This document shows positions 11,155 to 34,903 of a stretch of DNA of 64,000 nucleotides, piece after piece. Within the stretch, counting starts at the first letter, position 1, and each line of letters opens with the position of its first letter. Position numbers and translations under genes: made by a program. This stretch comes from Dermatophilaceae bacterium Sec6.4 (GTDB lineage Bacteria > Actinomycetota > Actinomycetes > Actinomycetales > Dermatophilaceae). The stretch lies in NCBI GenBank assembly GCA_039636865.1, contig CP144172.1:2108001-2172000 (forward strand), in the 5' to 3' direction. The notes under the pieces are model-generated. The model was not told where the DNA came from and did no database searches. It saw nothing but the letters and a program-made list of their open reading frames with translations.

Positions 11155-11229
11155 GAGCGCGGCCGCGAACGCGTCGAGGTTCGGATACAGGGACCAGGCG
11201 ATTTAAAGGCGGAAACTGGAAGAACATTC

Positions 11230-11262
11230 ATAATCATCCGAATCTTCCTGTGGTCACTGGGT
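11230..11262 (-). promoter_or_regulatory. Shared USP upstream element, divergent copy
   Basis: Read on the minus strand toward the USP gene, this copy carries GTGACC and then CGGATGATTATGAATGT. It lines up with the much closer pair at 13429-13459 and 34798-34828, with one single-base indel. Its gene-proximal end is 76 bases from the USP start, as in the other two. A TTTAAAT at about 11201-11206 could be part of a -10 region. What binds is unknown. Confidence 0.5.
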
Positions 11263-11822
11263 GTCGGTGTCGAGCGCATGCTCGCGCCTGCAACGTCGGA
11301 TCGCTGAACCAATCTCGACAGGTTCAATCGGCGGGAGTCTCAGAGCTGCAGCGGATGCCGACGCCATTCATCCAGGCCTCGAAGCTGAGGACTCTGCGGC
11401 GCGCTCCGCCGGTTCCGTGGGCTGGGGCGGCAAGAACGGGGGATTCGCTGGGGTTCTTCGGGATGCAAGAAGGACCGACGTTGATGCTTGGGAGTGTGAA
11501 GACGGTGGGATTCATGGTGATCCTGACGCGCAGGAAATCGCCGGTGTGTCCGCGTCGGAGCTCGTGCTCCGGGAGGCGGCAGCGGACGGCCGGCCTCTTG
11601 AGGACCTGCTGGGTTCTCCAGCACCTACAGACTACAGGGTTACTGCGGCTGAAACGAGGTCTGGTCGACCCCGGATCAGGCTGTTTCGATGGTGGTTGGC
11701 AACTCGCCAACAACTGCCGTGCTGAGGACAGCCGGGGAGCGGAAATGACGTGTGTCCGGCCGCAGCACACCGACAGTATGAGCGGGTGCACATTGAGGAT
11801 TCCTGGCTCGGTAGGTCCCCGT
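11263..11822. other. Gene-free stretch
   Basis: About 560 bases with several open frames on both strands, none with recognisable domains, sensible composition or a ribosome-binding site. A decayed gene is possible but cannot be supported. Confidence 0.4.
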
Positions 11823-12026
11823 TCATCCCATCCGACTGGCGTCGAGACGGCGGGCGCAGGCAGCGCAGCGGCAGTAGGCCGAGGACCATTCCTCACCCAT
11901 TTGCGGCCAGGGACCGTCGAGAAATGGCGTGTCGATTCCGCACAGCGAAGTACTTTGCCCGGCTTCGGTCGCGTGTGCCATACCCGTCGCGTTGTTTGCT
12001 GGGTCCAGGCTCCATGCAATCCGCAT
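11823..12026 (-). CDS. Small conserved-looking protein with cysteine pairs
   Basis: 67-residue protein starting MRIAWSLDPANNATG. It contains HATEAGQSTSLCG, DTPFLDGPWP and a terminal CRCAACARR. The spaced cysteines suggest a small zinc-binding knuckle, and the pattern resembles short actinobacterial proteins of unknown role that I recall only by shape. The start is the internal ATG at 12026; an earlier ATG at 12059 would overlap the PRC gene's stop. AGG lies shortly upstream. It directly follows the PRC-barrel gene on the same strand and is probably co-transcribed. Function unknown. Confidence 0.5.
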   Translation of the reverse strand: MRIAWSLDPANNATGMAHATEAGQSTSLCGIDTPFLDGPWPQMGEEWSSAYCRCAACARRLDASRMG

Positions 12027-12055
12027 TGACCTAGTGCCTTGGGAAGTCATTTGGG

Positions 12056-12538
12056 TCATAAGTGGCGCCCGCCATCCATGTTCGGTCGGTACCCGACACC
12101 CCAGTACGGCGCGTATCCGTAATGTTGGTAGACGCCCGCGTGATGGAGCCCGTCGTCAATCAGCTTCGGGTCGTAAGCGGGAGCAGCGGTGACCCTCTCA
12201 CGTGACTGGTCGATCAGCACGTGGTGCTCGGTAATCTTTGTAATGGCTTCGACGGGGATCAGGCTCTTCGTCTCTCCGAATCCCAAAAACCCGCCGTGTT
12301 CGACCAGCATGAACCTGACCTTCTTCTCCCGTTCGTCGATCAGCAGGTCCGCAATCGTGCCGATGCCGGTGCCATTCGGGTCTTTGACCTCGCGGCCGCG
12401 GACGTCGTTGACCAAGCCGTCGATCATCTGGCCGCGGTCGCTGAGCATGTAGAGCGTCGAGCGTCCGGTGAACGTGGGTTCGGTAACGGTGGATTCGGCG
12501 GTCGTGGATTCGGCGGTTGTCGTGTCGTCGATGGTCAT
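12056..12538 (-). CDS. PRC-barrel domain protein
   Basis: 160-residue soluble protein. The first 25 residues are a Thr/Glu-rich repeat (TTAESTTAEST). Residues about 35-115 form a PRC-barrel fold (VNDVRGREV, GTGIGTIADLLIDE, VRFMLVEHGG, LIPVEAITKI, HVLIDQSRERV). The tail is rich in Tyr, His and Gly. PRC-barrel proteins occur in RNA processing, photosynthetic reaction centres and, in actinobacteria, in stress loci. The exact role is unknown. GGAG lies nine bases before the ATG. The ATG overlaps the stop codon of an upstream degraded frame (see 12539-12834). Confidence 0.85.
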   Translation of the reverse strand: MTIDDTTTAESTTAESTVTEPTFTGRSTLYMLSDRGQMIDGLVNDVRGREVKDPNGTGIGTIADLLIDEREKKVRFMLVEHGGFLGFGETKSLIPVEAITKITEHHVLIDQSRERVTAAPAYDPKLIDDGLHHAGVYQHYGYAPYWGVGYRPNMDGGRHL

Positions 12539-12834
12539 TGCGTATCGTCTCCGTGGGCTTCGTAGATGCGGGTCGCGAGATTGCGGTCGAACTCAGTCAG
12601 CAACAGGTGCGGTGATCGTGTTTGCCGATTTCCAGCGCGACGCGGTACCCGACAAAGGAGCGGTCCCGGTACTACCTGACGGTGAGCGAATGCTCCTCGT
12701 GGCGGCCGTGAGGCAGGCCGCGAGATTCAGGCTGGCTGCGATGCAGCTGTTCATCACCGTACGCGCATCAAGCAGCGCCGTACAGGGCTGCTGCGGGGCC
12801 ATCTGCAAGGACGTCGCGGGGTGCCCGGCCCGCT
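12539..12834 (-). other. Intergenic region with a coding stub overlapping the PRC start
   Basis: On the minus strand the frame just before the PRC gene ends SPHLLLTEFDRNLATRIYEA HGDDTQ and stops in the four-base overlap ATGA shared with the PRC start. This is typical of a translationally coupled upstream gene. Further upstream the frame loses protein-like composition, suggesting a gene largely erased by frameshift or deletion. Its family is not recognised. Confidence 0.3.
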
Positions 12835-13353
12835 CTATTTCGCGTCTGTTGCTGCAGAGACCGGATTGACGTCGGGGAGGCCGGGAGGCGCGGTGTCACC
12901 GCGCATCACAACGACAGGGCAGGCCGCATGTGCCGAGCAGACCGAGCTGACCGAGCCGAGCAGGAGCCCCGCGAACCCACCGTGGCCCCGGTTGCCCACT
13001 ACGAGCAGCCGTGCGTTCTGACTGGCTTCGATCAGCACCTGAGCCGCGTTGCCCTCGTGCACGCTCAGACGCAGTCCGGCCGGGCGATGGTCACCGAAGA
13101 CCTCGTCGACCGTCGCCCTCAAAGCTGTACTGGCATCCTCGGCAGGATTCCAGTCGGGTGGGATTGCGGCCAGTCCAGCGCCCATCGCGCCGTAGGTGGT
13201 GAAATGGGCCCAGGCCGCGACTGCCTCGAGGGTGGCGCCGGTCGCCTGGGCAAGGAACTGCCCCCACAAAAGCGCATTCTTACTCGGTTCGGAACCATCA
13301 ACGCCAACCACGATGAGATCCCGCTCCGGGCTGATCATCGGTTCGTCAGCCAT
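12835..13353 (-). CDS. Universal stress protein (second of three)
   Basis: 172-residue UspA-fold protein with LIVVGVDGSEPSKNAL at the N-terminus and the ATP-binding signature GNRGHGGFAGLLLGSVSS near residues 124-141, then CPVVVMRGD. It is closest to the USP at 34904 (both have TLEVVAAW/TLEAVAAW and YGxMGAG segments). Several starts are possible. ATG 13353 is preferred because the shared upstream element is then 76 bases away, as in the other two copies. A GTG at 13374 is the alternative. Confidence 0.93.
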   Translation of the reverse strand: MADEPMISPERDLIVVGVDGSEPSKNALLWGQFLAQATGATLEAVAAWAHFTTYGAMGAGLAAIPPDWNPAEDASTALRATVDEVFGDHRPAGLRLSVHEGNAAQVLIEASQNARLLVVGNRGHGGFAGLLLGSVSSVCSAHAACPVVVMRGDTAPPGLPDVNPVSAATDAK

Positions 13354-13428
13354 CGACCCGCTGCTGCAGCGCACGAGGCGCCCGCGTCATCGCGACATGG
13401 TTCAAGCAGTGGAAAATGGAAGATGATC

Positions 13429-13459
13429 ATGATGGTCCCGATCGAGCGGGTAGTCACCG
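13429..13459 (-). promoter_or_regulatory. Shared USP upstream element
   Basis: Minus-strand sequence containing CGGTGACTACCCG followed by CTCGATCGGGACCATCAT. All 31 positions but one are identical to 34798-34828 before the third USP gene. CCCGctcgatCGGG inside it is an inverted repeat. The conservation ends sharply on the gene-proximal side, arguing for a binding site rather than a recent duplication. Confidence 0.7.
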
Positions 13460-13871
13460 AGTGTCGACAACGAGTGAATACTCGGGAACGCAGCGGCGGA
13501 CAGCTGAATTCTTTCGACTGGCTGATGCAGTCAGCGGTTCAAACCTACCGGCCGGCTCGATGCATCGCCAGGCACGCGGCCTGAGTTTCTTTCTCGACCA
13601 GCTCCCCGTCCGAGGTTCCCAACCCGTACAGGTGCGGCCACCTGCGCAGTTGTCGAACGTGATCCGGTTTTTGAGAGCACAGTTTTCGACGGCGCGTACG
13701 CGGGTCCGGATAGCTGGTCCAACCCGACGTCGATGTCAGACTTCGGGTGTAGCGTTGAAGTCGCTGATCAGTTCAGCCAGTTCGGGAATGGTGTGGCCGT
13801 CCGCCGCCGCGCCGCTGGGGCACAAGCCTCAAGCCCCCTCACACGTCACCACTGCCTCTGAGTAGGTTCTC
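13460..13871. other. Gene-free region upstream of the stomatin-like gene
   Basis: About 410 bases holding the outward side of the USP promoter and presumably the promoter for the stomatin/arc operon. An inverted repeat GGGGC ... GCCCC occurs near 13820-13840. No full Dos-like box was found. Confidence 0.4.
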
Positions 13872-14762
13872 GTGTCTTCTTCAACCCTTTCCCTGACCAT
13901 TGCCATCCTCCTCGTGCTCCTCATCGCGGTGGTGATCGCTGCGCTGAAAATCGTGAAGCAGTACGAAGAAGGGGTGCTGTTCCGTCTGGGTCGGGTGGTC
14001 GGGCAGCGCAAACCTGGGCTGCGTCTGATCATCCCGTTCGTGGATGTGATGCACCGGGTCTCGTTGCGGATCGTGACGATGCCGATCCAGTCCCAGGGCA
14101 TCATTACCCGCGACAACGTCAGCGTTGATGTGTCGGCGGTGGCGTACTTCAAGGTCGTTGACCCGGTCAAGTCCGTGGTCGCTATCGAGAACGTGTACTC
14201 CGCGATCGACCAGATCGCCCAGACCACCCTGCGTAAAGTCGTTGGCCAGCACACCCTGGATGAAACCTTGTCCGAGACCGACCGGATCAACAAGGACATT
14301 CGCGCGATCCTGGACGTCAGCACAGTGGACTGGGGGGTCGAGGTCACCCTGGTAGAGCTGAAAGACATCCAGCTGCCGGACAGCATGAAACGGGCGATGG
14401 CCCGCCAGGCCGAAGCCGAGCGGGAGAAACGTGCCAAGATCATCAACGCCGAGGGCGAATCGTTGGCCGCGGCAGCGTTGGGTGATGCGTCCGACACGAT
14501 GATGAAACACCCGTTAGCGCTGCAACTGCGCAACCTGCAGAGCATGGTCGAGATCGGTGTCGACAAGAACACCACCGTCGTGTTCCCCGCACCACTGATG
14601 AGCACTATCGGCGAACTCGGCGCCTTCCTGGCCCGAGAATCCAAATCCGCGACGGACCTGGTGTCCAGCCACCCGGAACCACCAAAAGATCCTGCGACCG
14701 ATCTGACGAAAACGCCGGTGGACCTGCCAGAGCCCGTCCCGAACGGTGTGGCCTCCCACTGA
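13872..14762 (+). CDS. SPFH/Band 7 (stomatin-like) membrane protein
   Basis: 296-residue protein with one N-terminal membrane helix ([19 protein letters not shown]) and an SPFH domain: [56 protein letters not shown], and a helical [22 protein letters not shown]. The C-terminal 40 residues are Pro-rich. SPFH proteins scaffold membrane microdomains and modulate proteases and transporters. A GTG start follows TAGG. The permease gene begins 67 bases downstream on the same strand, so the protein may be first in the arc operon and could organise its transporter and ATPase; that is inference. Confidence 0.92.
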
Positions 14763-14829
14763 GTCGGACGCTCGGCTGCCTACGCCGCACCCCGTTCACC
14801 CCGCTTCGCCCGTTCGTTCAGGAGTGATG

Positions 14830-16278
14830 ATGAAGAACATCGACGACGACCCGGTCGACACGCCGACCCCCGCCGGTCCGGGGTCGGCGCCCGCTTCCAG
14901 GCGGACAGCACCGGCCGGGGATCGCGGGATGGGCCTGACCCAGTCCACCGCGCTGATCGTCGGCAGCATCATCGGCGTCGGGATCTTCAGCCTCCCGTAC
15001 TCACTCGCGGCCTACGGTCCGATCAGTCTCGTCGCGCTGGGCATAGCGACCGTCGGAGCGCTGGCTTTCGCGGTCCTGTTCGCTGCTCTGACCCGGCGGA
15101 TGCCGGCTGACGGCGGCCCCTACGCGTACGCCCGGACCGCCTTCGGCAATGTCATCGGTTTCGGAAATGCGTGGACCTACTGGATCACCGCGTGGGCGGG
15201 TAACGCGGCAATCGCGGTGGGCTGGGTCTACTACGTGGAGAAGTTCATCAACCAGGGTGGCGGGAAATTCTGGACCATTGTGATCGCCCTGTCGGCGCTG
15301 TGGATCCCAGCATTGGTGAACCTCACGGGCATCCGCAACGTGGGCAGTTTCCAGGTGGTCACCACGGTGCTGAAGTTCATCCCGCTGCTGATCATGGCGA
15401 CCGTTGGCCTGTTCTTCATCCACGGCGGCAACTTCACCCCGTGGAACACCAGCGGGGGCTCGAGTCTGTCGGCGATCGGTGGCGCAATGGCGATCTGCCT
15501 CTTCAGTTACCTCGGCGTCGAAACGGCTGCGGTTGCCGCCGCCCGGGTCCGTGATCCGTCGCGCAACGTGCCGCGTGCCACCGTCTACGGCACATTGGCC
15601 AGTGCTGCCGTCTATCTGCTCTCGATGATCGCGGTTTTCGGCATCCTGCCCACCAGCGAGTTGGCCAAGGGCGCGAACAAGGCGTCCTACTCGGTCGCTG
15701 CCGACACGATGGTCGGTGGCTCCTGGGCGGGCGACCTGGTCGCAGTGGCCGTCATCGTCTCCGGTATCGGCGCCTTGAACGGCTGGACGATGATCTGCGC
15801 CCAGATGCCGCTGGCGGCGGCCAATGACGGCTTGTTCCCCCGTAGGTTCGCGGGCCTGAGCTCGCGGGGTGCGCCCGCATTCGGCATTGTCTCCTCGACG
15901 GCTCTTGCCTCGGTGGCTGCGGTGGTCTCCTACCTCGGCACCAGCGGCTCCACGGTCTTCACGACCCTGGTGTTGATGACCGGGATCACCGCGGCCGTCC
16001 CGTTCGGTTTCTCCGCTCTGGCGCAGATCGTCTGGCGCATGCGGGACCGCGGCCACTCGATCAGTACACCGCGGCTCGTGCGTGACCTCGTGGTCGCCGG
16101 GGTCTCCCTGGTGTTCGCGATCGCGTTCATCTACTTCTCGACCAACACAGGTAATACCTGGTACGTCGTGTGGGGGCCGTTCCTGATGACCGGCGCCGCA
16201 CTGGTGATCGGGGTGCCGGTTTACCTGATCCAGCGCAAACACATGACCGCACCCGAGCCGGTGCCGGCGTATCGGTAA
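14830..16278 (+). CDS. arcD: APC-family amino acid permease, probable arginine/ornithine antiporter
   Basis: 482-residue APC-superfamily permease with about 12 membrane segments. The first carries GSIIGVGIFSLPYSLA, the substrate-backbone glycine motif of basic amino acid/polyamine antiporters. FSYLGVETAAVAAARVRDPSRNVPRAT is the conserved cytoplasmic loop after segment 6. AGGAG at 14820-14824 fits the second of two adjacent ATGs. Location directly before arcA and the fold point to arginine uptake coupled to ornithine export; specificity is inferred from context. The symbol is assigned by role, as ArcD names more than one family. Confidence 0.85.
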   Translation: MKNIDDDPVDTPTPAGPGSAPASRRTAPAGDRGMGLTQSTALIVGSIIGVGIFSLPYSLAAYGPISLVALGIATVGALAFAVLFAALTRRMPADGGPYAYARTAFGNVIGFGNAWTYWITAWAGNAAIAVGWVYYVEKFINQGGGKFWTIVIALSALWIPALVNLTGIRNVGSFQVVTTVLKFIPLLIMATVGLFFIHGGNFTPWNTSGGSSLSAIGGAMAICLFSYLGVETAAVAAARVRDPSRNVPRATVYGTLASAAVYLLSMIAVFGILPTSELAKGANKASYSVAADTMVGGSWAGDLVAVAVIVSGIGALNGWTMICAQMPLAAANDGLFPRRFAGLSSRGAPAFGIVSSTALASVAAVVSYLGTSGSTVFTTLVLMTGITAAVPFGFSALAQIVWRMRDRGHSISTPRLVRDLVVAGVSLVFAIAFIYFSTNTGNTWYVVWGPFLMTGAALVIGVPVYLIQRKHMTAPEPVPAYR

Positions 16279-16334
16279 CCCGCCCGCGCAGCCATCCGCC
16301 CGCCCGCCGACTCCACCCCCGAAAGGAAGCAACC

Positions 16335-17564
16335 ATGAACTTCTCCGTCAACTCCGAGGTCGGCACTCTGCGCCAGGCCATCGTGCATCGCCCCGGTCTG
16401 GAGCTGGACCGGCTCACTCCGCTGAACGTCGACGACCTGCTCTTCGACGACGTGATGTGGGCCTCGCGCGCGAAGGAGGAGCACGATCTCTTCTCCGGTC
16501 AGCTGCGATCGCACGGTGTCGTCGTCCATGAGTTCTCCCAGTTGCTCCGCGAGGCGCTCGATATGCCGGGTGCCCGGGAGTTTCTGATCGAACGGCTGAC
16601 GATCGCGACCCGCTTCGGTCCAGCGCTGGACAAGCCGCTGGATCTGCTGGTCTCCTCCACCCCGGCGGCCGAACTGGCCGACATCCTCATCGGGGGGTTG
16701 CTCAAGCGCGAGATCCTGCCTTTGCTGCATACCTCGAGCCTGCTCATCGACCACCTCGAGGACAACGATTTCCTGCTCACCCCACTGCCGAATCACCTTT
16801 TCCAGCGGGACAACTCGGCCTGGGTGTACGACGGGCTCTCGATCAACCCGATGACCAAACAGGCCCGTAAGCGCGAGACGGTCAATTCCCAGGTCGTCTA
16901 CAACTTCCACCCGATGTTCGTCGGCGCGATCAACACCTTCCTCTACGGCAACGACGGACTGAATCACGAGCCGGCCAACATCGAGGGCGGCGATGTCACC
17001 GTGATCGGTAACGGCGCGGTGCTGATCGGGATGGGCGAGCGCACCACACCGCAAGGGCTGGAGTTCCTCACCAGACGGCTGTTCGAGACCGGCACCGCGA
17101 CGAAGGTGATCGTCGTCGAACTGCCCAAGTCACGCGCTTTCATGCACCTGGACACGGTGATGACGATGATTGATCAGGAGACGTTCTGCGTCTACCCGTT
17201 CCTACCGGGGGAGTTGCGCTCATTCCTGCTCAGCCCGGTCGGAAACGGCGGCGACTACAAGGTCGAGGAGAACAAGACTCTCTTCCCCGTTGTAGCCGAT
17301 GCGCTCGGTCTGGAGAAGGTCAGAGTGCTGCGTACCCCGATCGACGAGATGGGCGCTCAGCGCGAGCAGTGGAACGACGGCAACAACTTCCTCGCCCTCT
17401 CGCCCGGCGTGATCATGGGTTACGAACGCAACACCACCACCAACAGCTACCTCACCGATCACGGCATCACCATCATCCCGGTCGTGGGGTCGGAGCTGGG
17501 CCGAGGTCGCGGCGGACCACGCTGTATGACCTGCCCCATCGAGCGCGATGCGGTGTCGTCATGA
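16335..17564 (+). CDS. arcA: Arginine deiminase
   Basis: 409-residue cytosolic enzyme hydrolysing arginine to citrulline and ammonia. Conserved features: [17 protein letters not shown] at the N-terminus, [14 protein letters not shown] with the guanidinium-binding Asp, an NIEGGDV motif, [12 protein letters not shown] (catalytic His), and [11 protein letters not shown] with catalytic Cys397. Length matches the roughly 410-residue family. GAAAGGAAG lies just before the ATG. The stop overlaps the arcB start in ATGA, so the two are translationally coupled. Ammonia made here can raise internal pH under acid stress. Confidence 0.97.
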
Positions 17565-18616
17565 CCAGCGCCCAGACGATGCCGAGCACGGGCGCGCCGG
17601 TGACGTGGGAGTCACTCGCGGGCGCCAGTTTCCTCAAAGAGCTCGATCTCACTGTGCCGCAGTGGCAGGCGCTGCTGGACCTGGCTCGGCAGTTGAAGGC
17701 GGACAAGAAGGCCGGGCGCGAGCATCGGCATCTGAGCGGTAAGAACATCGCGTTGATCTTCGAGAAGGCCTCCACGCGCACCCGCTGCGCTTTCGAGGTT
17801 GCAGCCCACGACCAGGGCGCCCACGTGACCTATCTGGATCCGACGGGCTCGCACATCGGTCACAAGGAGTCCATTCGGGACACCGCGCGGGTGCTGGGGC
17901 GGATGTACGACGGGATCGAGTACCGCGGCTTTGCGCACGCAACCGTCGAGACGTTGTCCGAGGCGGCCGGTGTACCGGTCTGGAACGGTCTGACCGATCT
18001 GTGGCATCCGACGCAGTCGTTGTGCGACATGCTCACGATGACCGAGCACGCTGGTAAGCCCGCATCTGAGATCTCGTTCGCCTATGTAGGCGATGCCCGC
18101 GACAACACCGCAAATTCGCTGCTGGTCGCCGGGGCGATGATGGGTATGGACGTGCGCATCGTCGGTCCGGACTCGCTGCGAAACCCTGACGACGTGGTTG
18201 AGGCTGCCAGACGGATCGCCACGCAGACCGGCGCCCAGATCACCCAGACCGACGATGTCGGAACAGGGGTGCTCGGTGTCGACTTCGTCTACACCGACGT
18301 CTGGGTATCCATGGGTGAGCCGGACAAGGAGTGGGACCAACGCATTGCGCTCCTGGGGGAATACCGGGTCACATCCCAGATGCTCAATCTCTGCCGCAAC
18401 CCCGCCGTCAAGTTCATGCACTGCCTGCCCGCCTTCCACAACCGCGAGACAGAGGTCGGTGAGGCGCTCTTCAAGCGGACCGGCATCTCCGAGCTCGAGG
18501 TCACCGAGGAGGTGTTCGAGTCGGAGCACTCGATCGTCTTCGACCAGGCCGAGAACAGGTTGCACACCATCAAGGCAGTGCTCGTCGCCACGCTGGCCGG
18601 CCCACAGGGTGGCTGA
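17561..18616 (+). CDS. arcB: Ornithine carbamoyltransferase, catabolic
   Basis: 351-residue enzyme that phosphorolyses citrulline to ornithine and carbamoyl phosphate in the arginine deiminase pathway. Carbamoyl-phosphate motif STRTR begins at residue 71; [16 protein letters not shown] and HCLPAFHN (His287-Cys288-Leu-Pro) are present. The C-terminal [19 protein letters not shown] is the family closing motif. The catabolic role is inferred from its coupling to arcA (ATGA overlap) and arcC (one base apart); sequence alone does not separate it from anabolic ArgF. Confidence 0.97.
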
Positions 18617-18617
18617 C

Positions 18618-19535
18618 ATGCTGACCGTGGTTGCGCTCGGCGGCAACGCACTGCTGCAGCGTGAGGACAAGCCCGACGCCGTCATCCAACGCCACCACAT
18701 CCGCGCCGCTGCCGCGTCGCTCGCACCACTGGCAGCGCAGGACCAGCTGCTCATCTGCCACGGCAACGGCCCGCAGATCGGGTTGCTCGCGATGGAGAGC
18801 GCGGACGATCCGGCGTTGAGCAGTCCCTACCCGCTGGATGCCCTCGGCGCCCAGACGCAGGGGATGATCGGATACTGGCTGGCTCAGGAGCTGCACAACG
18901 CGGGGGTGGCCCGGCCCATCATCACCGTGGTAACGCAGACGCTCGTGGATGCGGCAGACCCCGCGTTCGCCGCGCCGTCGAAGTTCATCGGTCGCGTCTA
19001 TCCCCGCGCGGAGGCTGAGCGACTGGCGGAACAACACCACTGGACGATCCGCGCCGACGGGTCGTCCTGGCGCCGCGTTGTGCCCTCCCCGCGACCACTG
19101 GGCATCGTCGAACAGGGCTGTGTGCAGAGTCTGCTCGAGACCGGAGCGGTCGTCATCTGTGCTGGTGGGGGCGGTGCACCTGTCACCCGGGACGGGTCCG
19201 GTGCACTCATGGGGGTCGAGGCAGTGGTCGACAAGGACTACGTCAGCGCTCGTATCGCCCTGGACCTCGGCGCCCAGCGCCTGCTCATCCTCACCGACGT
19301 GTCGGCCGTGATGCGCGACTTCGGCACCTCGGATGCTTCCGCGATCACGCGCCTCAGCATCGAGCAGGCAGCAGCGCTGCACTTCCCGAACGGCTCCATG
19401 GGCCCGAAGGTCGACGCGTGTGTCCAATTCACCAAAACCTCCGGTCGGCCGTCGGCCATCGGCTCGCTCACCGAGGCTGCCGCCGTTCTGCGCGGCGAGG
19501 CCGGCACCACCATCAGGGAAGAGACCACCTCATGA
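18618..19535 (+). CDS. arcC: Carbamate kinase
   Basis: 305-residue amino acid kinase-fold enzyme making ATP from carbamoyl phosphate and ADP, the energy-yielding step of arginine fermentation. Motifs: [61 protein letters not shown] and [10 protein letters not shown] near the C-terminus. It starts one base after the arcB stop and its own stop overlaps the phosphoketolase start. Length matches the roughly 310-residue family. Confidence 0.97.
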
Positions 19536-21943
19536 CCACCACCATCAGACCGCAGCACTCGGCTGCCACCCCTGGCGAGAGTCCGACGCTCAGCCCGGAG
19601 TTGCTGCAGGCAATGAACGCATACTGGCGCGCGGCGAACTACCTCTCGGTCGGCCAGATCTACCTGTACAACAACCCGCTGCTGCGGCGGCCGTTGGCGC
19701 TGACCGACGTGAAACCGCTGGTGGTAGGGCACTGGGGCACCACACCGGGCCAGAACTTCATCTATGTGCACCTCAACCGGGTCATCAAGTCCGGCGACCT
19801 GAACATGATCTATGTCGCCGGGCCCGGCCACGGCGGTCCGGCGCTGGTCGCCCACACCTACCTGGAGGGCAGCTACAGCGAGATCTACCCCGACGTCAGC
19901 CAGGACGAAGCCGGGATGAAGAAACTCTTCACCCAGTTCTCTTTCCCCGGCGGGATCTCCAGTCACGTCGCCCCCACCACACCGGGTTCGATCCACGAAG
20001 GCGGCGAGCTCGGGTACTCCCTGAGCCACTCGTTCGGGGCAGTGTTCGACAACCCCGACCTGATCGTCGCGTGCGTCATCGGTGATGGCGAGGCTGAGAC
20101 CGGTCCGCTGGCCACCGCCTGGCACTCCACCAAATTCCTCAGCCCGGTCGGTGATGGTGCGGTGCTGCCGATCCTGCACCTGAACGGTTACAAGATCAGC
20201 AATCCGACCGTGCTCGCCAGGATCGAGCCGGAGGAGTTGGACCAGTTCCTACGCGGCTGCGGATGGGACCCGCGCTACGTCGAGGGCGAGGACCCGGAGA
20301 CGATGCACGAGCTGATGGCATCGGTGCTGGACGGCGCGATCGAGACCATCCAGAACATTCAGACAGCTGCTCGTACGGGCGGTAGCACCACGCGGCCGCG
20401 CTGGCCGATGATCGTGCTGCGGTCGCCAAAGGGGTGGACGGGCCCGAAGGTGGTCGACGGCCTTGCTGTGGAGGGCACTTTCCGGTCCCACCAGGTGCCA
20501 CTGCTGGTGAACGACGCGCACCCGGGTCACGTCGAGCAGCTGGACGCGTGGATGCGCAGCTACCGGCCGCAGGAGCTGTTCGACGAGGAGGGGCGACTGG
20601 TGCCCGAGCTGGCTGCCCTCGCTCCAGAGGGTCAACGGCGGATGGGCGCCAACCCGCACGCCAATGGCGGACTGCTGCTGCGCGATCTGCGGATGCCCGA
20701 CTTCCGCGAGCACGCGGTTGCGGTCCCAGTACCCGGCGCTGTGCAGGCGAAGGACACCCTCGTGCTGGGGGAGTTCCTGCGGGACGTCGTCACCCTGAAC
20801 GGACAGGAGCGCAACTTCCGGATCTTCGGTCCGGACGAGACGCTGTCCAACCAGCTCGGTGCGGTCTTCGAGGTCACCGACCGGCAGTGGGAGGCCCGCA
20901 CCGTAGAGAACGACGAGTGGCTGGCCCCTCAGGGCAGGGTGCTCGATTCGATGCTGTCCGAGCACCAGTCGCAGGGATGGCTCGAGGGCTACCTCCTGAC
21001 AGGTAGACACGGACTGTTCAACTGTTACGAGGCGTTCATCCACATCGTTGACTCGATGTTCAACCAGCATGCGAAATGGCTGAAGATCACCAAGGACCTG
21101 CCGTGGCGACGCGATATTTCATCGCTGAACTACCTGCTGGCCTCGCACGTCTGGCAGCAGGACCACAACGGCTTCACCCACCAGGACCCCGGATTCCTGG
21201 ACCACGTGGTGAACAAGAAGGCCGACATCGTGCGGGTCTACCTACCGCCGGACGCGAACTGCCTGCTGTCGGTCGCCGACCACTGCCTGCGCAGCCGGCA
21301 CTACGTCAATGTGATTGTTGCCGGAAAGCGCGATATGCCGCAGTGGCTGACCATGGCGCAAGCGGAGGTGCACTGCACCGAAGGCATCGGCATCTGGGAG
21401 TGGGCGGGCAACGACCGCGGCAGTGAGCCGGACGTCGTGCTGGCCTGCTGCGGTGACACGCCGACCCTGGAGGTGCTGGCCGCCGTCACGATCCTGCGCG
21501 AGCACCTGCCGCAGCTGAAGGTGCGGGTCGTGAACGTGGTCGACCTGATGAAGCTGCAGTCCGCCAGCGAACACCCACACGGGCTGTCCGATGCGGACTT
21601 CGACGCGTTGTTCACCCGCGACAAGCACATCGTCTTCGCCTTCCACGGCTATCCCACCCTGATCCACCGCCTAACCTACCGCCGCACCAACCGCAACATG
21701 CACGTGCGCGGATACGTCGAGGAAGGCACCATCACCACGACATTCGATATGCGGGTGCAGAACCGGCTCGACCGGTTCCACCTCGTGCAGGACGTCCTGG
21801 AACGGCTGCCGCAACTCGGGGCAACCGGGGACTACCTCAAGCAGACGATGGCCGACAAGCTCGTCCAGCACAATCTCTATATCAACCAGCACGGCCAGGA
21901 TCTACCCGAGATCCGCGACTGGACCTGGACGTCGCTGCAGTGA
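19532..21943 (+). CDS. xfp: Phosphoketolase (xylulose 5-phosphate/fructose 6-phosphate)
   Basis: 803-residue thiamine-diphosphate enzyme splitting xylulose 5-phosphate or fructose 6-phosphate with phosphate to acetyl phosphate and an aldose phosphate. Family motifs: [59 protein letters not shown], thiamine-binding [22 protein letters not shown] and [15 protein letters not shown]. Translation is coupled to arcC by ATGA. Acetyl phosphate can yield ATP through acetate kinase, so this adds an oxygen-independent ATP source. No ackA gene is in the window. Confidence 0.97.
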
Positions 21944-22974
21944 GCACCCCCAGTGCGTCATCGCAGTCTGCTGACATGTATTGGCTGGTGGCCGCCGCGC
22001 ATGCACTGGTCGCTGGCGACAGGGGACTGCTCGCGGCCGATGAATCCATTCCCACCTGCAACAGACGATTCGCCCGGCTGGGCATCGCGCAGGACGAACC
22101 CGCCCGCCGCGCCTACCGCGAGATGATCGTGACAACTCCCGGTCTTGGTGACTTCATCAGCGGGGTCATCCTGTGCGATGAGACCATCCGGGAGGCCACC
22201 AGCGACAGCGTCCCGTTCCTGGAGGTGTTGGCCAACGCGGCAATCCTGGCAGGAATCAAGGTGGACCTCGGTGCGAAACCGTTGACCGGCCATCCTGGGG
22301 AGAAGGTGACCGAGGGGCTGGACGGACTGCGGGAGCGACTGGTCGAGTACGCCGCCATGGGTGCGCGCTTCGCGAAATGGCGGGCCGTTTTCGGTATCGG
22401 CGACGCGATCCCGAGCCGAGCGTGCATCGAGGCGAATGCGCAGGCACTCGCGCGCTACGCGTCCCTGTGCCAGGAGGGTGGTCTGGTGCCCATCGTGGAG
22501 GCTGAGGTGCTGATGGCCGGTGACCACTCGCTGGCTGAATGCGACCGGACCACCGAGGCGGTGCTGCGAGAGGTCTTCGCCCAACTTCGTGCCGAGGGGG
22601 TGGTGCTGGAGGCGATGCTGCTCAAACCCAACATGGTCATCTCCGGTGCGGACTACCCGGTCCAACAGCCGGCTGATTCCGTGGCCGCAGCGACCCTTGA
22701 CTGCCTGCGGGAGGTGGTGCCGGCCGCCGTCGCAGGTATCGCGTTCCTGTCCGGTGGGCAGACCGGCGACCTCGCAACCGCCCGGTTGGCGGCAATGAAC
22801 GCCCCTGGACTGACCCCGGCGCCATGGCCGCTCGCATTCTCGTTCGGCCGCGCTATTCAAGAACCGGCACTCACCATCTGGGGCGGCGACGACGCCCAGG
22901 TGAGGAGGGCGCAACAAGCCCTCCTTCAGCGGGCCGGTTCCAATCGCGATGCACGCCGAGGGATACATCAATGA
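21940..22974 (+). CDS. fba: Class I fructose-bisphosphate aldolase
   Basis: 344-residue Schiff-base aldolase splitting fructose 1,6-bisphosphate to dihydroxyacetone phosphate and glyceraldehyde 3-phosphate. [15 protein letters not shown] is the class I N-terminal motif. [10 protein letters not shown] and [13 protein letters not shown] hold the catalytic lysines. [19 protein letters not shown] is the phosphate-binding loop, and [17 protein letters not shown] is also diagnostic. The start is GTG in a GTGA overlap with the phosphoketolase stop. Class I aldolases need no metal; most actinobacteria use class II, so this is probably a supplementary, condition-specific enzyme supplying substrate to the GAPDH at the start of the window. 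Confidence 0.95.
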
Positions 22975-25502: not shown

Positions 25503-25522
25503 CGGTGCCTGAACACCGTCAA
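25499..25522. terminator. Hairpin ending the arc operon
   Basis: A perfect 9-base inverted repeat, TTGACGGTG and CACCGTCAA with a six-base loop, overlaps the ATPase stop. It precedes the convergent nitroreductase gene's end. No T-tract follows; it may act in both directions. Confidence 0.55.
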
Positions 25523-25537
25523 CCGTGCTGAACGCCG

Positions 25538-26248: not shown

Positions 26249-26332
26249 TCCTTCACCCTAAGGTCGATACCGAGGCGAGTTGTGCTTCTTCGTCTGCTCG
26301 GGACGTGCCCTTCACCATGACCAGGAGCATCC

Positions 26333-27049: not shown

Positions 27050-27157
27050 CACGCACCAATCACCGCAGCAGACCGCTCAACTCAGGGCGCGATAGTGCCC
27101 GCTGGTTCTTCTGCTCGCGGGTCGTTGACATTGCTGGTTTCAGACGGGTCTGCTGTG

Positions 27158-27171
27158 GGGCCTTTTGGCCC
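27158..27171. promoter_or_regulatory. Dos-box-like palindrome before the ABC exporter
   Basis: GGGCCTTTTGGCCC is a perfect 14-base palindrome fitting GGGnCnTTnGnCCC, about 126 bases before the original ABC ATPase start at 27297. It could instead be a small hairpin behind the HAD gene. The rest of 27050-27296 shows nothing further. Confidence 0.4.
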
Positions 27172-27296
27172 TTACGGCGGCGATGGTGCGCATTTAGCGT
27201 CTTCAGTAGGGAAGTGCGTCCTCAGATCGCTCCGGGTGACGTGCCCGCCACACGACATACGGTCTGCCTCCTCGCGGGCCTGTTCTGGAGTCCCGA

Positions 27297-28088: not shown

Positions 28089-28089
28089 G

Positions 28090-30627: not shown

Positions 30628-30650
30628 GGATCCACACCAAAAGGGACGTC

Positions 30651-30800
30651 TTGAACCGAAAGGCAGTGCCGCGGAGGGCGACAGGGGCGACGACCGCGCT
30701 ACTGGCGTTGGAGTCGATCACGTCGGTGACCGCACTGTTTGGCGGGTTCCTGCTGGTAGCGGCGCCCGACGGCAGGTTGCTGGCCTCTGGTCCGGCATGG
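30651..30800 (+). pseudogene. 5' fragment of a membrane protein gene
   Basis: From TTG 30651 (AAGGGA upstream) the frame reads LNRKAVPRRATGATTALLAL and then ESITSVTALFGGFLLVAAPDGRLL. This is a clear start of a small integral membrane protein, with one helix and a conserved-looking AAPDG turn. After about 45 residues the sequence loses hydrophobic character and runs without a stop into the next gene in the wrong frame. I read it as a 3'-truncated gene; the family is not identified. Confidence 0.45.
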
Positions 30801-30900
30801 CTGTCCTGGTCCTGGCTTCGCTACCCCCGCAACCCCAGCAGTTCGATCTCAATCATCCTGTCCGCCTCACCTATCCTGCGAACCGAGAGAGCTGATTCCT

Positions 30901-32091
30901 ATGACCACCACACTGCGCTGGGTGCTCGTTGTCGTGCTCACGGGGCACGGTCTGATTCACCTGCTGGGCGCCGCAAAAGGATTCGGGGTGGCCGATGTTC
31001 CCCAGCTCACCAAGCCGATCGGAGTCGTCGAAGGCGGGCTCTGGCTGCTCGCTGCCATCTGCGTGCTCACCGCCGCGGCATTCCTCGCCGCCGGCGCGCC
31101 CACCTGGTGGTGGGCCGGTGCGCTCGGTGCAGCGGTCATCTCACAGATCGCCATTGCCACCTCCTGGCACGACGCGCGGGCCGGGACCATCGTGAACCTC
31201 ATCCTGGTCCTCGCCGCCAGCTACGGCTTCGCCGCTGAGGGACCGACGAGTTTCCACGCTCAATACCGCCAGCATGTCGCGCAGGAGCGGGCCGATGTCG
31301 ACCCCTCCCCAACAGTGCTGGCCGAATCGGATCTCGTAGGCCTACCAGCCCCGTTGGCGGCCTACATCCGAGGTTCCGGCGCAATCGGGCGACCCCGGGT
31401 GGTCAGCTTCCACGCCGACTTCCACGGACGTATCCGCAGTGGCCCGCACGCAGCATGGATGCCGTTCACCGGTCAACAGGTCAACACCTACGGACCACGA
31501 CCACAGCGGATCTTCCTGATGGACGCCACCAAATCTGGGTTCCCCGTCACCGTCCTGCACGTCTTTGCTGACACCACGGCCACCATGCGGGTGAAGCTGC
31601 TTTCGGTGTTCACCATGGTCAACGCATCCGGCCCCGAGATGAACCGAGGGGAGACCATCACCGTGTTCAACGACCTGGTCGTCATGGCCCCTGGCGCGAT
31701 CGCCGACGCTCCTGCCAAGTGGAGCGCCATTGACGCTTTGCACCTCCGTGGGGAATTCACCGACGGCAACCAGACCGTCTCCGCCGTCCTGACCTTCGAC
31801 GCACAGCACGATCTGGTCGATTTCGTCTCCGACGACCGAGCGGCAGCATCCGCCGACGGGAAAACATTCACTCCACAGCGCTGGTCGACCCCGCTCGCAG
31901 GCCACCGTGACACCGGCGGACGCCGGGTCCTGACCTCCGGCGAAGGGGTATGGCACGCCGCAGGAATGGACGGCACGTTTACCTACCTGGAGTACCACCT
32001 CGACGCCATCACCTACAACCCGCGCAACGGTGCGACAAAGGCCGCCGCACCCCGGTCCACACCCGCAGTCATCAACCGCGCCCGCCGCTAA
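30901..32091 (+). CDS. DUF6544-type protein with membrane N-terminus
   Basis: 396 residues. The first 120 form about four hydrophobic segments (WVLVVVLTGHGLIHLLGAAK, LWLLAAICVLTAAAFLAAG and others). Residues about 140-370 match the DUF6544 pattern: YIRGSGAIGRPRVVSFHADF, AAWMPFTGQQ, RIFLMDATKSGFPVTVLHVF, MNRGETITVFNDLVVMAPGA. The family has no established function. It lies behind the exporter on the same strand, 273 bases away, with the truncated gene between. Confidence 0.75.
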   Translation: MTTTLRWVLVVVLTGHGLIHLLGAAKGFGVADVPQLTKPIGVVEGGLWLLAAICVLTAAAFLAAGAPTWWWAGALGAAVISQIAIATSWHDARAGTIVNLILVLAASYGFAAEGPTSFHAQYRQHVAQERADVDPSPTVLAESDLVGLPAPLAAYIRGSGAIGRPRVVSFHADFHGRIRSGPHAAWMPFTGQQVNTYGPRPQRIFLMDATKSGFPVTVLHVFADTTATMRVKLLSVFTMVNASGPEMNRGETITVFNDLVVMAPGAIADAPAKWSAIDALHLRGEFTDGNQTVSAVLTFDAQHDLVDFVSDDRAAASADGKTFTPQRWSTPLAGHRDTGGRRVLTSGEGVWHAAGMDGTFTYLEYHLDAITYNPRNGATKAAAPRSTPAVINRARR

Positions 32092-32570
32092 TTAACCGCC
32101 GTCCACGCGGGGACGACAGCCCCGGGCGCGGCGTCCCTCTCCGCGACAGCGAATCGTCGCCCAGCACGGTCGATGCAGCAGGACGCACCCTGCCTGCCTC
32201 CCCAGCGGGGCAGGCCACCTCGGGTCCGGTCAGGGCATTGGGCAGGACCAGGGGAGGAAGCGGGCCCTGCTGACAACGTGGGTAGGGCCCGCGTGGGCCC
32301 TGCCGGAACCCCAGCTGCGCTCGGCCAGGGGTGTCCCACGGTTATCTGTTCGACGGATAGCTCAATCGCCCTGGCCGCGGTTTGCCCATGCCGTTGCTCG
32401 GACGCACCTTCGGAACGCTGTGGGAGTTTCCGCATGCGCGATGCTCCGAATTTGCGATAGTCCCAGGGCTCGGCCCAGGTATCGATTTCCGGCAGGTCGT
32501 GGGACGTGGTCGGGACTGTGAGCGTCATCCTCAGGTCGTGCTGTCCGGCAACTGGATTCGAGAGTCCCGG
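32092..32570. other. Region between convergent genes with a GC-rich palindrome and a possible gene fragment
   Basis: About 480 bases. At 32284-32301 AGGGCCCGCGTGGGCCCT is a near-perfect inverted repeat that may terminate one or both genes. On the minus strand from ATG 32528 the frame begins MTLTVPTTSHDLPEIDTW and AEPWDYRKFGASRM, which looks like real coding sequence. It soon degenerates into a Gly/Ala/Pro/Arg-rich shadow. Family not recognised. Confidence 0.35.
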
Positions 32571-32885
32571 TCAGCTGGATTGGTCTGATTCCGGCTGATG
32601 ATGGACCTCGATTTCCCAGTCGCTGGCCAAGGCGGCGATTGCTGCAACTGCTGTCAGAGCAGGTGCTGCGATGGCGGCGACGATCCCGGCGGTGACTGGG
32701 ATCTCGATCACGGTGTGGCCCTGGTCGTTTTTGACCGTGATGCGTCGAACGTTGCCCTCGTGCAGGAGGTCTTTGACCTTCGCGGTCATCGCCTCGCCGC
32801 GCAACTTGGTCTTCGGAGTGAATGGTCCGTTAGCCCGGTCTGGAGAGTTGGGACCTTCGTGGCTCGTTGTGTCGTCGTTGTTCAT
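32571..32885 (-). CDS. DUF4342 domain protein
   Basis: 104-residue protein starting MNNDDTTSHEG (ATG 32885, GAAAGG five bases before). After a 30-residue polar N-terminus, KVKDLLHEGNVRRITVKNDQ and HTVIEIPVTAGIVAAIAAP match DUF4342, in which a helix and beta hairpin precede a hydrophobic Ala-rich stretch (residues 68-90) that may lie in the membrane. Function unknown; small proteins of this family appear in envelope- or stress-related contexts. Confidence 0.82.
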   Translation of the reverse strand: MNNDDTTSHEGPNSPDRANGPFTPKTKLRGEAMTAKVKDLLHEGNVRRITVKNDQGHTVIEIPVTAGIVAAIAAPALTAVAAIAALASDWEIEVHHQPESDQSS

Positions 32886-33094
32886 GGCTGCCTTTCGTCC
32901 TTCAAGTTGTCGTGCGCGTGGTGTGTCTAGCGATGAGTTCTGCACCGGATACGACTGGATTCCGGCCGTAGGTTTTGCCGTCGGGGTGGAGTTTCGCGAA
33001 TTGTCAGCGCCGCATGAGAGTGCACGGCAGCGTTGGGGTGCGAGCAGAGGTGCCACAAGGAATCCAGGGTTGGAACCCTAGGGCTGGTGTTAGG

Positions 33095-33340
33095 GAGTGA
33101 TGTGGCGGTGTTGCTCGCGACGGTGACATGGACCTGGTTGGTAGTGATTCCACCGCACCTCTCCTTTGGGGTCCACGGTGTGTTGTGGACGGTCGCGCGC
33201 ACGGAGTCTGGGAGTTTCGCGACCCATTTGATGGCTTCTTCGACGGTTACCCCGATTCTGGCGTCGTCTCGATCTCCCGGACCCGACCAGCTCTTCCTGG
33301 ACGGACTCTCGGATTTGGTAGTCGCCCTTGATGATGGTGC
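33095..33340 (-). pseudogene. Decayed BON-domain gene
   Basis: Minus-strand pieces in shifting frames match the intact triple-BON protein at 2544: GDYQIRESVQEELV against SDLQIQESVREELA, then RDDARIGVTV against VDDAGIGVAV, then LPDSVRATVHN against PPNSVRATVQN, PKGEVRWNHYQ against LKGVVRWNYQ, and NQVHVTVASNTAT against NRVHVTVSGNTAT. Whole BON repeats are missing between pieces, so deletions plus frameshifts destroyed it. Sequencing error cannot explain this. Confidence 0.7.
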
Positions 33341-33596
33341 TGGGGATGGTGCTGGCTTTCGTTGGCGCTTTCGCGCGGTGGACAATGTGCCGTAGTGGTC
33401 AGTGGGTGAGACATTCGAAGTGGGATGCGGCACACGGGGATGCGTGAAGGATCGGTGACCTTCCTCCCGCGAGCGCCGTTGGGTACGCAAGGAAGACCTG
33501 AGGCGTCGAAACTCGAATGTGACGCTGCTGGCCTGGTGCAAAGCTGGAGCTCTTCCAGGTCGGCGGCGGACGGCTTCCGTGGCGAGCGCGCGATGT

Positions 33597-34034
33597 TCAT
33601 AGACAGCGGAGCTGGTTATCGATGTGCTGGTGATCGGCGAGGTAGGTGACGGCGACCTCGACCGCAAGTAGGTCACCGGCAGATGAGGCTACCCCGGTGA
33701 GGGTGATGACGTCGACGTCGATCTGCACGCTGATAGTGGGCAGGGGTAATCGAAAGATGTGCTCAATGGCCAGGTGAGCGGTTGCCGTGGCGAGACTGAT
33801 GACAGGGGTAGTTGCCGGACCAACTGGGCAGAGCGCACCACGAGCGGCATTGACATCATCTGCAACAAGGCGAACATCGCATAAGAAGTTCACCGCAGCC
33901 TGGACACTGAGCCCGGTTTGGGGGGTTGCGCTCGCCCGGATGGGGTAGGTTCTGTGGCCGTCCTGAGTGGTGACCATGGTCGGTGGCGCGTGCCGATCTG
34001 AGCCGGCCCAACGGGCCGGTGTATTGATCCTCAT
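33597..34034 (-). CDS. Hypothetical protein with BON-like C-terminal region
   Basis: 145-residue frame. The C-terminal part ISVQIDVDVITLTGVASSAG followed by DLLAVEVAVTYLADHQHI resembles a BON strand-turn-strand-helix. The middle has DVRLVADDVNAARGALCPV. The ATG at 34034 overlaps the stop of the upstream frame (ATGA), typical of coupled genes. Composition is weaker than for neighbouring genes and conserved glycines are missing, so it may be decaying. It could form a stress-related group with the USP at 34904. Confidence 0.4.
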   Translation of the reverse strand: MRINTPARWAGSDRHAPPTMVTTQDGHRTYPIRASATPQTGLSVQAAVNFLCDVRLVADDVNAARGALCPVGPATTPVISLATATAHLAIEHIFRLPLPTISVQIDVDVITLTGVASSAGDLLAVEVAVTYLADHQHIDNQLRCL

Positions 34035-34342
34035 CGGGCGCGCTCCAGTTCCACCAGCCGGCGGCGAGTTGCTCGATGGACGGAGCTCACCACACTGTCC
34101 GCGACCCGAGAGCGAGGCCGCCCGTTGGGATCACCGATGGTGAAATGTCCGCGTTGTAGCGGGAATGTAATGGCAGCCAGGGCGCGCCCTCGGTCATCGA
34201 TGCCGCGGGTCCGCACGCGGATGCGGTCTTTGTGGGCGCAATTGTTGACCGCATGCACCAGCGGGCTGAGCATGCTGGAATCGTTGGATTCAAGGACGAC
34301 CAGTGTAGTGGCGAGCCCGTTGCGATGCCAGGTAAACCACAC
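34031..34342 (-). CDS. Hypothetical protein coupled to the BON-like gene
   Basis: About 103 residues from a GTG at 34342: VWFTWHRNGLATTLVVLESN, then SPLVHAVNNCAHKDRIRVRT and a charged C-terminus RATRRRLVELERAR. The frame remains open upstream to 34552, but that part looks non-coding. No family is recognised. Four-base overlap with the next gene is the main support that it is, or was, translated. Confidence 0.35.
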   Translation of the reverse strand: MWFTWHRNGLATTLVVLESNDSSMLSPLVHAVNNCAHKDRIRVRTRGIDDRGRALAAITFPLQRGHFTIGDPNGRPRSRVADSVVSSVHRATRRRLVELERAR

Positions 34343-34797
34343 GTCTCCCAGCGCGGGAGACAGTAGACCGCAGGGCCCGGCGCAGCAGTGACCTAGACCG
34401 CACAGCACCACGGCGAGGCAGGGAGAGCGATTCGGTTGTGCCGAGCCGAGCGGGCGTGAATGGGCGCACATGAAGGTAGTCCCGACTTTTCGGTGACCCC
34501 GTACGTTCCGGCTGCGAGCTGAACATGCTCTGAAGCGCGCAGCAGACGGCAACGCTTCTTCCGGTGGGCTGACCTCTCAGCGTTGCCTACGCTAGCAGTT
34601 GGGGCAGCAGTCCGCTCCCTGGGCGTGAACACGTCGGTCTGCGGGCCTTCGACGTGGCTGCGAACAGGATCAGCTCGTCTTGGGGGGTGGGGGATGAGCA
34701 GAACCTGTAGCGTGGGCACGCTGAGAGAATCAGCCAGTCGAAAGGGATTCAGCCGTCCGCTGCTGGATTCGTGAGCCTTTGCTCGGTGTCGACGCCC
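34343..34797. other. Gene-free region upstream of the third USP
   Basis: No convincing gene. It holds the far side of the USP promoter. Confidence 0.4.
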
Positions 34798-34828
34798 CGG
34801 TGACTACCCGCTCGATCGGGATCATCAT
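34798..34828 (+). promoter_or_regulatory. Shared USP upstream element
   Basis: Contains CGGTGACTACCCG then CTCGATCGGGATCATCAT. One mismatch over 31 bases separates it from the copy at 13429-13459 in reverse orientation, and it also ends 76 bases from its USP start codon. GTCGAC a few bases further out is conserved too. Confidence 0.7.
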
Positions 34829-34903
34829 GAATGTGTTTTTTGTTTCTCTGTGTGAATCGTGCCGTAGTGGTGCGATCACCTCGACCTCATCGGCAGCGCG
34901 CTG

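Follow-up and report, generated by a model that had tools for sequence, protein, structure and literature searches.

Why do three universal stress protein (USP) genes of Dermatophilaceae bacterium Sec6.4 carry the same short block of sequence at the same distance from their start codons? This question is raised by a 64,000-nucleotide stretch of the genome (assembly GCA_039636865.1, contig CP144172.1, positions 2,108,001 to 2,172,000), and the whole of this stretch is called the window below. We found that the block belongs to a family of structured 5′ leader RNAs, undescribed as far as our searches reach, which stands before a stress regulon and is linked to genes for GAF-ANTAR proteins. In titles and the beginnings of abstracts of the papers listed, with subscription journals largely outside the coverage, no description of the leader was found. 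No Rfam model matched it either, at the gathering score in the window or at E ≤ 1 in 12 leader loci.

The sequence-only reading had described the repeated block accurately. Read directly from the sequence, the copies at 13429–13459 (minus strand) and 34798–34828 (plus strand) agree at 30 of 31 bases, and a diverged third copy is present at 11230–11262 (minus strand), as had been reported. A 31-mer shifted by one base recovered the first two copies with 1 and 0 mismatches, where chance would give none. The gene-proximal end lies 76 nucleotides (nt) from the USP starts at 11154, 13353, and 34904, as had also been stated, but the spacing is the distance between two start codons: it is constant because the proximal end of the block coincides with the beginning of an ATG, which starts an upstream open reading frame (uORF). 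In the four paralogous USP genes designated A–D, 77 nt separate the uORF start and the USP start. A 30-nt version in IUPAC code (≤ 3 mismatches) had 3 matches in the 3.79-Mb genome, all preceding USP genes; the third is copy D, which lies outside the window at G000:C2:2097486. The paralogues share 54–65% amino acid (aa) identity with USP C. Since the genome has 22 USP domain matches, most of its USP genes are without the 30-nt element. The sequence similarity extends about 85 nt upstream of the 31-mer, and the whole module, of about 120 nt, is common to genes other than those for USPs. Judged by its sequence, the 31-mer is the 3′ end, with the ribosome-binding site and start codon, of a structured 5′ leader RNA of about 120 nt. 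A coding origin of the 31-mer via its in-frame GTG was considered and dropped; copy A shifts the frame (by eye).

The structure was examined in a MAFFT alignment of 25 copies from this genome that was not fitted to any structure. Positions assigned to the hairpins P1, P2, and P3 held standard pairs in 95.0% of the cells, against 85.2% after shuffling (0 of 500 shuffles), although the shuffle count is not a probability, given that this alignment itself supplied the structure and that the copies are paralogous. When the partners were slid, 26–50% of the cells were paired. Compensatory changes occurred at 11 of the 17 pairs. In addition, a GUCCGG-like stretch after P1 pairs with a CCGGAC-like stretch after P3, with the variants GUCGA/UCGAC in leader C and GCCUGG/CCAGGC, GCCUGA/UCAGGU, and GCCCGG/CCGGGC elsewhere. 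Over 54 leaders, the summed duplex energy of this enclosing helix was −460, the permuted mean being −377 (standard deviation 13.6), and 0 of 20,000 permutations were as low. As deduced from these paired sequences, the helix enclosing P2 and P3 gives a three-way junction. We tried and rejected a pseudoknot in which the P2 loop (GUCCG) would pair with the CGGAC that follows P3: it paired in 76.1% of the cells with one double change, and the enclosing helix fits more copies. Compared with its dinucleotide shuffles, the folding domain had greater stability (mean z −1.42, with 50 of 54 below 0). The core comprises P1 (GCUGG..CCAGC), CAGUCCGGAA, and CGCCGGACAC and is conserved, the helices are variable, and the mean column identity between copies is about 60%. 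Paired arms that change sequence while keeping their pairing point to RNA structure, and we consider it highly probable that the leader acts as RNA.

A putative promoter precedes this domain. A TANNNT box, most often TAGCGT, stands 12–15 nt before P1 in 51 of the 55 alignment rows (54 places, one row being a truncated duplicate), whereas random positions in these loci show it at a rate of 0.5%; copy A and three distant rows are the exceptions. Inspection by eye revealed no −35 box. At the other end, many copies finish with a Shine-Dalgarno (SD)-like run and a start codon (...AGGAUCACC-AUG), and by our assignment 22 of the 25 copies of this genome (all but L143, L146, and L147) have the start codon right at the leader end. 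The sequence CGGUGAUC, which precedes the SD-like run, can pair with it to form an SD hairpin. In an alignment fitted to the other helices, 5 of its 7 pairs covaried and 64.7% of the cells were paired, a figure from a test whose totals still count the rejected pseudoknot. The inverted repeat CCCGctcgatCGGG of the sequence-only reading is present in copies B, C, and D, where its CCCG/CGGG arms would form the inner stem of this hairpin, but it is not found in the other copies. We put the chance that the SD is sequestered in this way at about even. In leaders L231 and L232 of genome G931, before PRC-barrel-like and slipin-like genes (by eye), the 3′ hairpin shows no clear SD, and the gene begins at a greater distance downstream.

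The leader is repeated many times in this genome. A search with an nhmmer profile built from the four copies showed that related blocks also precede other genes, and modelling the sequence of the distal 62 nt gave 23 genome matches at E < 1e-3, seven of which had trained that model. The covariance model gave 32 matches at E < 1e-4, 33 at E < 1e-3, and 35 at E < 0.01; 28 of the 33 had trained the model, and those at 2110283, 2103856, 1954112, 2086166, and 2055175 had not. Candidates L225 and L227, in which inspection by eye showed no TANNNT where it was expected, were excluded from all counts of alignment rows, promoters, and linkage, and weak model matches were dropped (L171–L195, and matches with E of 0.006–0.1 in L040, L071, and L043). 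The downstream genes supported by Pfam encode USPs (four), Band_7, PRC-barrel, CBS, DoxD/DoxX, HMA plus P-type ATPase, a succinate-dehydrogenase cytochrome, DUF5994, baeRF, COX1, zinc dehydrogenase, GNAT, and the nitric oxide (NO) reductase NorB; a weaker leader match (E 0.0067) precedes a molybdopterin/cytochrome b561 protein. The COX1, PRC, zinc dehydrogenase, and DoxX genes lie some hundred bases downstream, behind a small ORF or another gene. Further labels were assigned by eye: nitroreductase-like (L154, scanned without a match; L243 and L244), HPF-like (L234), glycosyltransferase-like (L226, L238, and L239), and small proteins. Neighbours in the window include arginine deiminase, ornithine carbamoyltransferase, phosphoketolase, class I aldolase, DcuC, and cation ATPases. 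We infer that the downstream genes constitute a low-oxygen and stress set. The first four of these neighbours lie in one stretch (16170–18616 and 19418–22974), which resembles a low-oxygen energy island.

We also analyzed the distribution of the leader in other genomes. In the following overlapping samples, all of which include this genome, the best 9–19 candidates were scored per genome, so the counts are lower bounds. Matches to the leader occurred in at least 5 of 186 genomes of the family (E ≤ 5e-4), at least 3 of 396 in the order sample, at least 24 of 394, from six families, in the class sample, and at least 4 of 396 in the phylum sample (E ≤ 1e-3), where our own match is strong, a weak one in G677 appears to be genuine, and the remaining two do not. 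When 38 selected genomes were searched with greater sensitivity, the 29 genomes with an earlier match were recovered, and the nine others, among them both other species of the genus, gave no match. The leader is thus patchy, with clear members on a Rhodococcus plasmid and in several further families of actinobacteria, and this genome has by far the most copies among those examined. The sequence-only reading had asked whether matches are scattered inside genes and whether the element precedes related USP genes. The element is not randomly scattered inside genes, but most USP genes of relatives lack it: no convincing copy was found at 80 named USP loci, the best named relatives being those of Lapillicoccus and Terrabacter, and none at 28 USP loci of other relatives, whereas one USP gene of another genus (G027) is preceded by a leader.

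What could read such a leader? The GAF-ANTAR gene of the window has a leader of its own, and 25 of 62 leader loci have a GAF-ANTAR homologue within 1.5 kb, compared with 1 of 123 USP loci without a leader (Fisher 5e-13, a value overstated through locus overlaps and island membership). These comprise 11 of 30 leader loci in this genome, corresponding to 7 distinct genes since neighbouring loci overlap, and 14 of 32 in relatives (13 genomes); two of our 32 copies at E < 1e-4 are outside this count. Among the controls, 0 of 15 USP loci of this genome, 0 of 28 of relatives, and 1 of 80 named USP loci had a homologue nearby, L005, L008, and L009 having been removed from the first group (18 to 15) because they hold leaders. 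The sole positive control, L026 of a Lapillicoccus metagenome-assembled genome, is taken to be the same contig as G154:C315, in which a leader lies about 4.6 kb from the GAF-ANTAR gene. A second ANTAR-like protein is often adjacent; one homologue scored 27.4 bits for ANTAR (at the Pfam cut-off), another 15.3 bits (below it), and in a third no ANTAR was detected. These proteins have about 200–220 aa and no named N-terminal domain (L256:2256–2852, minus strand; L255:12471–13064, plus strand; L260:8946–9605, plus strand), and in several loci the gene adjoins that for GAF-ANTAR.

The linkage was then approached from the protein side. A plasmid search with the GAF-ANTAR protein alone returned 67 records, of which one was close, in Rhodococcus sp. 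AQ5-07 (NZ_CP046101.1, 73.5% identity). Two leaders (76.2 and 51.6 bits) lie next to its gene, so the prediction from protein to RNA held. One leader stands before slipin, phosphoketolase, aldolase, and P-type ATPase genes, and the other after the gene for the second ANTAR-like protein; a carbamate kinase gene is also found beside them. A third match in the same locus (L260, 20.7 bits) falls within the annotated phosphoketolase gene and was regarded as a chance hit. In three of the other 66 records that were checked (34–37% identity), there was no leader above 11.9 bits. A partnership with ANTAR proteins is probable on this evidence.

The small ORFs opened by the ATG at the proximal end have 26 codons in A and D, 31 in B, and 25 in C, and the uORF stop overlaps the USP start as GTGA in A, TGATG in C, and ATGA in D. 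The same arrangement recurs at other loci and in other genomes, which supports coupling to the main gene: in G027 the leader is followed by a 113-aa ORF, ATGA, and USP; on the Rhodococcus plasmid by an unannotated 47-aa ORF, TGATG, and slipin; and at L140 and L154 of this genome by an ORF, ATGA, and the next ORF. The Band_7, DUF5994, GNAT, and NO-reductase genes have no intervening uORF and start directly at the leader end. Coupling of the uORF to the main gene is, in our estimate, about as probable as its absence. In several uORF peptides a Cys is followed by R or IxR (PCIR, PCRD, SCRS, SCRG, VCIGRD; the uORFs of A, B, and C, L001:1528–1608, and L260), and an E-S/P-C-R context of the Cys was seen. 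By eye, a 5-codon ORF begins at the end of the leader at 2283–2405.

Taking these results together, we propose with a probability of roughly 60% that the leader is ANTAR-linked and controls the translation of a hypoxia- or dormancy-like regulon. A promoter with the conserved TANNNT −10 box would start the transcript at hairpin P1, and the enclosing helix around P2 and P3 would form the three-way junction. A further hairpin, for which the evidence is weaker, would tend to cover the SD before the first start codon. This start codon would be either that of the target gene or that of a uORF ending at or near the target start, which would pass its ribosomes on. As to ANTAR binding and the sense of regulation, we infer that the GAF-ANTAR proteins, and possibly the second ANTAR-like protein, bind the leader upon a signal, probably hypoxia or redox, and that binding exposes or hides the ribosome-binding site of the stress and low-oxygen genes.

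Known ANTAR-target RNAs (PMC8164766, PMC3369931) are built from two small hairpins, each with a hexanucleotide loop (A1, G4), joined by a 2–25-nt linker. RNAs of this EutV/NasR/AmiR type resemble the leader in having an ANTAR partner, here via gene linkage only, and in their position in an mRNA leader, often over the ribosome-binding site or start codon, which our leader shares. They differ in structure, as ours combines the P1 hairpin with a three-way junction and has other loop sizes. The canonical double hexaloop was tested as a candidate and rejected, the covarying helices having other loops; since the hexaloop test fails, the leader is not classed as a member. It may work like an ANTAR-target RNA. 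The terms “stress protein,” “GAF,” “phosphoketolase,” and “nitroreductase” do not occur in the main text of PMC8164766, its supplements apart. The most far-reaching form of our proposal, to which we give somewhat less than even odds, is a new class of ANTAR-target RNA: a three-way-junction leader, read by GAF-ANTAR sensors, that controls the translation of an actinobacterial hypoxia/dormancy regulon directly or via a coupled leader ORF, with about 30 copies in one genome, a patchy distribution between families, and one occurrence on a plasmid.

Several observations count against this interpretation. Two A1/G4 hexaloop hairpins were found in 1 of 73 alignment rows, and one or more ANNGNN hexaloop hairpins (stem ≥ 4) in 14 of 73, duplicates included in both counts. 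No GAF-ANTAR homologue lies within 1.5 kb of 37 of the 62 leader loci, and L005, L008, and L009, USP loci that hold leaders, have none. Leaders cluster in a few gene islands, so that membership of an island may account for part of the linkage. When six full leaders were folded one by one, the results were unremarkable (z from +0.95 to −1.88). For the SD hairpin, 798 of 20,000 cross-sequence permutations were as good, and the mean z against dinucleotide shuffles was −0.67 (39 of 53 below 0). Finally, when the intervening bases were shuffled, the overlap between uORF and USP was kept in 0.57, 0.41, 0.06, and 0.53 of cases (A, B, C, and D), an effect of the fixed frame and of the unchanged bases that follow; the overlap is therefore taken as suggestive and not as strong evidence.

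The alternative that survives best is a riboswitch that senses a metabolite or ion, in which the three-way junction would be the aptamer and the ANTAR proteins merely members of the regulon. Our leader has the conserved folded domain with covariation that is expected of a riboswitch, its core is conserved while its helices vary, and the SD and start codon lie at its 3′ end; like translational riboswitches and other cis-regulatory leader RNAs, it couples a conserved domain to a possible SD-sequestering hairpin, although no known class in Rfam matches it. Second-messenger riboswitches also occur in many copies in one genome. However, no one metabolite is common to the downstream genes, ANTAR genes are repeatedly adjacent, and the P2 loop CGUCCGC is near-invariant among the copies of this genome but not in class-level relatives, so we regard this explanation as unlikely. 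Less likely again is a constitutive 5′ hairpin leader that stabilizes the mRNA or sets translation strength in a group of genes switched by their promoters, with no sensing by RNA. The −10 box is the most constant feature, the transcript would, judging from this box, begin a few nt from the stable hairpin P1, and the evidence for the SD hairpin is weak, all of which suits such a leader; a protective hairpin, however, needs no covarying enclosing helix and junction kept across families.

The sequence-only reading had regarded the block as a binding site selected in DNA, for a DosR-like or another transcription factor. Its claim of selection stands, as the block is a regulatory element and not a chance repeat, but its DNA-operator sense is unsupported because the block lies 3′ of the −10-like box, ends on the ribosome-binding site and start codon, and belongs to helices whose arms change sequence together. 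The DosR/DevR box is a palindromic TTSGGGACTWWAGTCCCSAA-like site upstream of the promoter, and the mycobacterial DosR dormancy regulon includes USP, CBS, metal P-type ATPase, and nitroreductase-like genes. The gene set described here overlaps with it in kind (our nitroreductase-like label being assigned by eye), and the short CCCG/CGGG repeat would suit an operator. That repeat is missing from most copies, and the window has 0 matches to a DosR consensus with ≤ 3 mismatches, in line with the earlier remark that the sequence is not a standard Dos box; what these genes have in common is an RNA leader. An operator is accordingly very improbable. A dispersed repeat or mobile-element remnant that landed before genes by chance is hardly credible: all 32 copies at E < 1e-4 do lie in three chromosome stretches (C2:0.80–0.85, 1.95–2.14, and 2.83–2.90 Mb), with the patchy occurrence and plasmid copies described above, but the near-constant position relative to the −10 box and start codon, the compensatory changes, the coherent gene set, and the divergence between copies all oppose it.

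Compared with the regulatory uORFs and leader peptides of actinobacteria, the uORFs reported here are similar in being short, in lying just before the controlled gene, and in their stop/start overlap. They differ in following a structured leader, in occurring only at some targets, and in having no run of a single amino acid able to sense a particular tRNA.

The window contains eight leader copies, which are listed with their genes in Table 1; leaders were scored with the final covariance model (R3), and downstream domains with Pfam. Two families of small proteins accompany them. A C-terminal motif [LT][ST][FY][ED]xW[MI] was seen by eye in small proteins directly after leaders in several genomes (L156, L158, L167, L168, and L169). 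Homologues of the 146-aa Cys-containing protein follow leaders in L153 of this genome and in G027, G949, and G935; this family of about 110–150 aa (LGHxCxxxC), without a Pfam match, is repeatedly the first gene after a leader (also in L258, L256, and L236), and in one case its gene overlaps a USP start.

Table 1. Leaders, uORFs, and associated genes in the window (coordinates in window positions).
Feature	Position	Strand	Evidence or remark
Leader upstream of GAF-ANTAR gene	2283..2405	-	R3 50.3 bits, E 1.2e-8; outside training rows
GAF-ANTAR protein gene	1272..2051	-	Pfam GAF_2 66.6 bits; ANTAR 27.3 bits, at cut-off
Leader A, diverged, without TANNNT	11230..11346	-	R3 43.2 bits, E 5.4e-7
uORF A, 26 aa	11151..11231	-	GTGA overlap with USP start 11154
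USP gene A	10660..11154	-	Pfam Usp 103.4 bits
Leader E	11514..11632	-	R3 88.5 bits, E 1.4e-17
63-aa small-protein ORF after leader E	11324..11515	-	C-terminal LSFEAWM; no Pfam match
Leader before PRC-barrel gene, P2 loop differs	12640..12757	-	R3 59.9 bits, E 6.9e-11
PRC-barrel gene	12056..12538	-	Pfam
Leader B, before USP 13353	13429..13545	-	R3 82.6 bits, E 3.3e-16
uORF B, 31 aa	13335..13430	-	19 nt into USP if start 13353; ATGA if start 13338
USP gene B	12835..13353	-	Pfam Usp 86.1 bits for ORF 12835-13374
Leader G, ends directly on Band_7 GTG start	13753..13873	+	R3 90.5 bits, E 4.9e-18
Band_7/SPFH gene	13872..14762	+	
Leader divergent from leader C	34473..34591	-	R3 51.8 bits, E 5.3e-9
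146-aa Cys-containing small protein	34034..34471	-	No Pfam match
-10-like box TAGCGT of leader C	34708..34713	+	Sequence
Leader C, before USP 34904	34710..34828	+	R3 82.3 bits, E 4.0e-16
Leader C hairpins	P1 34720-34734; P2 34746-34770; P3 34773-34784		Read from sequence
Leader C enclosing helix	34737-34741/34789-34793	+	Read from sequence
Leader C SD hairpin	34799-34803/34822-34826; inner stem 34807-34810/34817-34820	+	Read from sequence
uORF C, 25 aa (MNVFFVSLCESCRSGAITSTSSAAR)	34827..34904	+	Stop overlaps USP start as TGATG
USP gene C	34904..35413	+	Pfam Usp 99.3 bits

To our knowledge, no RNA target is known for many of the GAF-ANTAR proteins of actinobacteria. If these proteins read the leader, their targets and biology would become directly testable, with a single RNA fold, two proteins as candidate partners, and a defined set of genes (USP, Band_7, PRC, CBS, respiration, and NO reduction) near which the arginine-deiminase and phosphoketolase genes lie. 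If the proposal is true, uORFs between leader and target would have been missed by annotation, as before the slipin gene of the Rhodococcus plasmid, and this stress regulon would be built on a common RNA leader instead of a common DNA operator.

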